A model generated the notes under the pieces. That model was given only the letters and a program-made list of their open reading frames with translations. It searched no databases and had not been told where the DNA came from. A DNA stretch of 64,000 nt, taken from an uncultured Pelagibacteraceae bacterium. Lineage in GTDB: Bacteria; Pseudomonadota; Alphaproteobacteria; Pelagibacterales; Pelagibacteraceae. The translations under genes and the position numbers were made by a program. Each line of letters begins with the position of its first letter. The stretch's first letter is position 1. Of this stretch, positions 31,843 to 32,483 are shown piece after piece. Where the stretch lies: positions 1 through 64,000 of the forward strand of contig CACIKW010000003.1 of NCBI GenBank assembly GCA_902587315.1. Direction: 5' to 3'.

Positions 31843-31871
31843 ATTAGACTCCAAGCTGGAGTCCTCGTCAA
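31843..31871 (-). promoter_or_regulatory. Candidate ccrM promoter with GANTC-containing palindrome in the spacer
   Basis: Minus strand TTGACG-17 bp-TCTAAT; palindrome GACTCCA-AGC-TGGAGTC at 31847..31863 carries two GANTC sites; further GANTC at 31891..31895 and 31919..31923. Confidence 0.55.
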
Positions 31872-31913
31872 CCTCAGATTGAATTAATTTGAGTCCTGTA
31901 GTTGTTTAAAATA

Positions 31914-32483
31914 TTAAAGACTCAATATGTTGTATGTTGGACTGAATGTTTTTCTGTGATGCTTAGTGATTCCAAATTTTTTTATAGCCATCAAATGCTC
32001 TCTGGTTCCATAACCGGCATTTTTATCCCAACTGTAATTTTTATATTTTTTTGAAATTTTTTTTACTAAGCGATCTCTAGACACTTTTGCTATTATTGAT
32101 GCGGCTGAAATTTCAGGTATTTTTTGATCACCTTTAATTACATTTATAATTTTGTAATTATTTAATTTTGGAATTTTGTTTCCATCAATTAATACTAAAG
32201 AGGGTTTTTTTTTAAGTTTTTTGATTGCTCTTTTCATAGCTAACAAGCTTGCATTTAAAATATTTAATTTTTCTATTTCAATTATTGATGCTGACCCAAT
32301 TGCCCAAAAGGAATTTTTTTTAATATATTTTTCTAAAATTTCACGATTATTTTTTGATAGTTTTTTTGAATCTTTTAATTTTTTTTTATTTATATTTTTA
32401 TTTAGAATTACAGCCGCCGCATAAACAGGACCAATCAAACTGCCTCTCCCAACTTCATCTACTCCAGCAATTATTTTTTTCAT
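31914..32483 (-). CDS. rnhB: Ribonuclease HII
   Basis: IAGVDEVGRGSLIGPVYAAAVIL; SIIAKVSRD. Confidence 0.96.
   Translation of the reverse strand: MKKIIAGVDEVGRGSLIGPVYAAAVILNKNINKKKLKDSKKLSKNNREILEKYIKKNSFWAIGSASIIEIEKLNILNASLLAMKRAIKKLKKKPSLVLIDGNKIPKLNNYKIINVIKGDQKIPEISAASIIAKVSRDRLVKKISKKYKNYSWDKNAGYGTREHLMAIKKFGITKHHRKTFSPTYNILSL

Follow-up and report, generated by a model that had tools for sequence, protein, structure and literature searches.

In Caulobacter, the ccrM promoter carries a pair of GANTC sites and is active in the hemimethylated state (PMC10073500, PMC2217572), and those start sites that have a GANTC in the −10/−35 interval make up a separate timing class within the cell cycle (PMC4287350). 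The protein GcrA binds to region 2 of sigma, recognizes promoters bearing m6A, and stimulates formation of the open complex (PMC7403470). An ortholog of ctrA is absent from Pelagibacter (PMC2877005), in which GANTC is methylated in vivo (PMC9516812). For the space between rnhB and a DNA methylase gene, Meyer et al (2009) proposed a weakly supported structured RNA (Rfam RF01784, bablM), in which stem 1 showed no mutations and stem 2 few compatible ones (PMC2704228); the text of that paper mentions neither GANTC nor a promoter (PMC2704228). In the 64,000-nucleotide stretch of Pelagibacteraceae DNA analyzed here (the window), the SAR11 element catalogued as this small RNA is probably the promoter of ccrM. 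This promoter, in turn, is probably gated by the methylation that its own gene product carries out, and would be on when hemimethylated.

The rnhB–ccrM region and its predicted promoter

On the minus strand, rnhB (ribonuclease HII; 32483-31914; Pfam RNase_HII, 5e-41) is followed, after a gap of 84 bp, by ccrM (babIM; 31829-30756), which encodes a GANTC adenine methyltransferase of 357 aa. The product contains the Pfam domains N6_N4_Mtase and RAMA and scores 569 bits with the NCBIfam CcrM model, which is under the curated cut-off of 830; an ortholog is present in 272/297 genomes of the order.

The candidate promoter that the first-pass annotation had placed upstream of ccrM was recovered on the minus strand, with a −35 element TTGACG (31871-31866), a spacer of 17 bp, and a −10 element TCTAAT (31848-31843). 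Two GANTC sites lie within or next to these elements. The first core site (GACTC, 31859-31863, minus strand) begins at offset 8 counted from the first T of TTGAC, and the second (GAGTC, 31847-31851, minus strand) extends into the −10 element by two bases, an overlap already noted in the first-pass annotation. Together they form the inverted repeat GACTCCA-AGC-TGGAGTC, the 7-nt arms of which (31847-31853 and 31857-31863) are perfect. A further GACTC (31891-31895, minus strand) is located 24 nt before TTGAC and is moderately conserved (88/138 congeners). The four sites at 31847, 31859, 31891, and 31919 that had been counted as a cluster upstream of ccrM are all real, in position and letters, but the fourth (31919-31923, minus strand) falls within the last codons of rnhB.

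GANTC is depleted by ∼30% in the window (103 sites found versus 151 expected from dinucleotide shuffles). Since four of the 103 sites would fall within 77 bp with P ∼0.02 under uniform placement, density by itself is modest evidence, and it is conservation that decides. The pair GACTC-N7-GAGTC is unique in the 859-kb genome, and the ccrM promoter is the sole genomic match to TTGACN11-15GANTCTANT. When TTGACN11-15GANTCTAAT was searched in 151 congeners, the matches were mainly at ccrM and the remainder was near the reversed control; the search thus revealed no wider SAR11 promoter set sharing precisely this geometry. A generic sigma-70 scan did not flag the ccrM promoter because TCTAAT is devoid of an A at position 2, and this departure from the usual −10 element counts against the explanation preferred here. 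That explanation, to which we assign a probability of about two in three, is that the 29-bp segment 31871-31843 (minus strand) serves ccrM as its sigma-70 core promoter and is gated by CcrM methylation.

From the spacing to the −10 element, transcription is predicted to start at 31838-31834 (minus strand), which would leave a leader of ∼5–9 nt. The near-leaderless mRNA suggested earlier fits with the first ATG being 12–15 nt past the −10 element in 138/138 congeners. Two further conserved features were observed upstream. The sequence TTCAATC (31883-31877, minus strand) forms an inverted repeat with the −35 element (TCAAT-N5-GTTGA), of which it supplies the left arm; the whole, TTCAATC-N5-GTTGA (31883-31867), overlaps the −35 element, is near-invariant in the 138 congeners and absent from the sister family, and is possibly a regulator site. 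A conserved (A)CACAA-like block at about 31904-31899 (minus strand), ∼30 nt upstream of the −35 element (columns −32 to −28 from TTGAC in the alignment of this genus, g1), is visible in other SAR11 genera too.

Conservation of the core sites in SAR11

Upstream regions of ccrM from the same genus were compared, 135 of them distinct in one count and 138 in the tree set; changes were counted on a tree built from the coding part of ccrM. The genomes are mostly MAGs, and related sequences are not independent. TTGACN-17-TCTA[ACT][TC] was present in 135/135 distinct regions, always with the 17-bp spacer. GTTGAC was invariant (138/138) and AGTCTAAT nearly so, both with 0–1 changes per column on the tree, compared with 18–34 changes in each of the spacer columns +6 to +8.

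The first core site was kept as GANTC in 128/138 sequences, at offset 8 in 41 and at offset 9 in 87, irrespective of its central base (A in 97, C in 27, G in 3, T in 1), and was lost ∼9 times on the tree, to be compared with the 18–34 changes per column at +6 to +8. The second core site was kept in 133/138; its G position changed 5 times versus 24 times for the neighboring position. Because G is the only N seen at this site in the genus, part of its conservation may reflect constraint on the −10 element and not methylation. Overall, GANTC was retained at both core positions in the congeners while N and the flanks varied. Conservation upstream of orthologous ccrM genes, the check proposed for the methylation-gated reading, is therefore borne out by the core sites, and an equivalent with fixed geometry is found class-wide (see below).

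In the other genera of the order, TTGAC was present in 30/30 loci and was followed by at least one GANTC in the adjoining interval in 26/30. The sister family has the layout TTGACC-N2-GANTC-N6-GAATCATATT, with the ATG 6–7 nt past the −10 element in nine of ten genomes; by this distance, ccrM of the sister family (L083-L091) is apparently leaderless. The core GANTC was lost in some or all sampled members of two SAR11 genera of family f1 (g2, L080 and L081; g4, L075 and L077), which have nevertheless kept gcrA; a test for joint loss of gcrA and the GANTC sites was negative. As a separate observation, several SAR11 genera have a conserved GTTGAA(T) just before the ATG, within the short leader of ccrM (L064-L077, L080, L081), and in genus g5 it is part of GATTCAA-N7-TTGAATC, with one GANTC per arm.

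The bablM family, promoter or RNA

What the first-pass annotation had overlooked is that the segment matches Rfam RF01784 (31826-31895, minus strand) with 66.3 bits, above the gathering score of 38, and this match is the source of the main rival to the promoter. According to that rival, a cis-acting structured RNA, for example an attenuator or terminator hairpin, is located in the ccrM leader and acts on transcripts initiated farther upstream or continuing out of rnhB. Besides the score of the match, the conserved rnhB–ccrM context (PMC2704228) is in favor of such an RNA, as is the hairpin of this particular genome, which is strong (−11.2 kcal/mol) and terminator-like. In most relatives, however, the hairpin is weak (mean MFE −5.1).

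The Rfam consensus of stem 2, GAAUCC..GGAGUC with a central A.G mismatch, corresponds to two GANTC sites that differ in N, and any two GANTC sites mimic a stem because GANTC is its own reverse complement. No compensatory change in stem 2 was detected among the 138 sequences, and pairing was never clearly above that of shuffles. The central pair of the stem was C-G in 32 sequences and T.G in one, whereas the other 105 had non-complementary bases there, and in none of the 14 sequences lacking a site was the loss compensated; stem 1 is nearly invariant and hence uninformative either way. Matches to RF01784 are confined to the genus itself (1/11 genera), and beyond it the stem is gone while TTGAC and GANTC stay. 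In addition, the fixed 17-bp spacing and the fixed distance from the −10 element to the ATG are features of a promoter, and support for the RNA had already been graded weak in the original paper (PMC2704228). We thus regard the structured RNA as very unlikely.

If the segment is read as the ccrM promoter, its distances to the ATG imply that the mRNA would begin past the hairpin and be near-leaderless or leaderless; with a start ∼5–9 nt before the ATG, bablM would not be expected as an RNA from this promoter. This suggests that RF01784 is worth re-examination as a promoter and shows, more generally, how self-complementary methylation sites can mimic RNA stems.

Recurrence across the class and relation to described promoters

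The same arrangement was sought in 107 other alphaproteobacterial ccrM upstream regions, drawn class-wide. A GANTC 6–20 nt after TTGAC was present in 70/107 regions (reversed control, 1), and TTGAC-N2-6-GANTC-N3-7-GANTC in 38/107 (reversed and reverse-complement controls, 0; dinucleotide shuffles, 0.02). In 42/107 (reversed control, 1), the distance from TTGAC to the beginning of a GANTC was exactly 14 nt, and ANNNT followed this GANTC in all 42; the last C of GANTC therefore opens a −10 hexamer CANNNT at a spacing of 17 bp. The genus studied here has a one-base variant of this class geometry (offset 20, TCTAAT). Carriers of the element include Altererythrobacter sp. C41 and a Rhodobiaceae MAG; among the class ccrM regions, it was absent from several Mesorhizobium and Phyllobacterium loci. 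Because the promoter layout recurs at ccrM genes across Alphaproteobacteria, control of ccrM by its own product is probable.

Another dual-GANTC element that occurs class-wide, typically TTGAC-N4-6-GANTC-N5-7-GATTC (L318, L320-L329), sits ∼9–13 nt before the start codon of a protein of ∼103–137 aa; the two such proteins that were tested both match Pfam DivIC (septum formation initiator, FtsB type). A search of viral contigs returned only distant methylases.

A constitutive sigma-70 promoter, at which the GANTC letters are kept for reasons of promoter sequence or by shared ancestry and methylation is without effect, would account for the conservation of AGTCTAAT past GANTC, for the two SAR11 genera in which sites were lost and the gene kept, and for the absence of a link between the element and GcrA (see below). 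Nevertheless, the first core site has no role as a promoter element, slides by one base, and stays GANTC with any N. The same relation also recurs in families that otherwise differ in sequence, with variable gaps of 2–5 nt, and GANTC is 2.6 times commoner in the class regions than in their shuffles (3.53 versus 1.34 per region), yet depleted in the window. We therefore consider a promoter indifferent to methylation unlikely.

Methylation-dependent autoregulation of ccrM, perhaps via GcrA, is the mechanism that we infer to be the best. Replication would render the sites of the ccrM promoter hemimethylated; GcrA, as a sigma-70 cofactor, or RNA polymerase directly would read the methylated GANTC beside the −10 element and open the promoter; and the CcrM thus made would remethylate the chromosome, including its own promoter, whereupon transcription would fall. 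We infer the effect of methylation on transcription, its sign, and the reader protein alike; the sign and the reader are uncertain.

The gcrA gene, which the first-pass annotation had suggested looking for, is present together with ccrM in the genome, and also in 36/41 relatives. Across the class, the element did not correlate with GcrA: it was present in 54/83 genomes with a PF07750 match and in 16/24 without, although this model may miss divergent GcrA. With the element equally common in both groups, co-occurrence lends no support to GcrA as the reader. Among gcrA upstream regions from five genomes, no GANTC promoter of the ccrM type was seen at SAR11 gcrA. The earlier reading is thus partly supported, by the conservation of GANTC, the presence of gcrA, and the short leader, but the element does not correlate with GcrA, and sites have been lost in genera that keep gcrA.

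Control by occupancy, with CcrM or RNA polymerase on the clustered GANTC sites repressing the promoter and no separate reader involved, would accommodate both the element in genomes without detectable GcrA and the CtrA-less SAR11. Stable occupancy by CcrM is, however, unlikely because the enzyme dissociates from DNA once it has carried out one methylation (PMC10073500), and we hold this form of autorepression to be highly improbable.

A further reading, which we consider less likely than not, is that one ancestral promoter design (TTGACN, a 17-bp spacer, one GANTC sliding within the spacer, and a second GANTC whose last C opens the −10 element, GANT[CANNNT]) has kept ccrM under methylation feedback class-wide and has persisted in SAR11 without CtrA as well as in lineages without detectable GcrA; from this persistence it would follow that methylation is sensed by RNA polymerase itself or by some other, unknown reader.

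The proposed gating of the ccrM promoter offers a testable model of how very abundant, streamlined marine bacteria reported to be without the master regulator CtrA could time DNA methylation. The class-wide signature could also be used to find further promoters gated by methylation; the similar element before the DivIC/FtsB-type division gene came out of this search as well. A literature search of open-licence papers found no published description of this ccrM promoter geometry.

Compared with the Caulobacter crescentus ccrM promoter, the SAR11 promoter serves the same gene and likewise has two GANTC sites, for which control by methylation state has been reported in Caulobacter (PMC10073500, PMC2217572). 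The Caulobacter promoter is CtrA-activated, however, whereas Pelagibacter is reported to be without ctrA (PMC2877005). In the SAR11 promoter, both sites lie inside the −35/−10 region at fixed offsets, and the leader is near-absent. With the methylated GcrA/sigma-70 promoters of mipZ, ftsZ, and ctrA P1, it shares a GANTC located in the −35/−10 interval or close to the start site (PMC3708114, PMC4287350), but differs in having two sites, one fused to the −10 element, and in that the target is the methylase gene itself. With RF01784, it shares the identical segment and context, but it is read as a DNA promoter, with no covariation and with a hairpin that precedes the expected start site. A pair of GANTC sites in the ccrM promoter is already known from Caulobacter; new are a geometry that is fixed throughout the class, the use of this geometry where CtrA is lacking, and the reinterpretation of an Rfam family.
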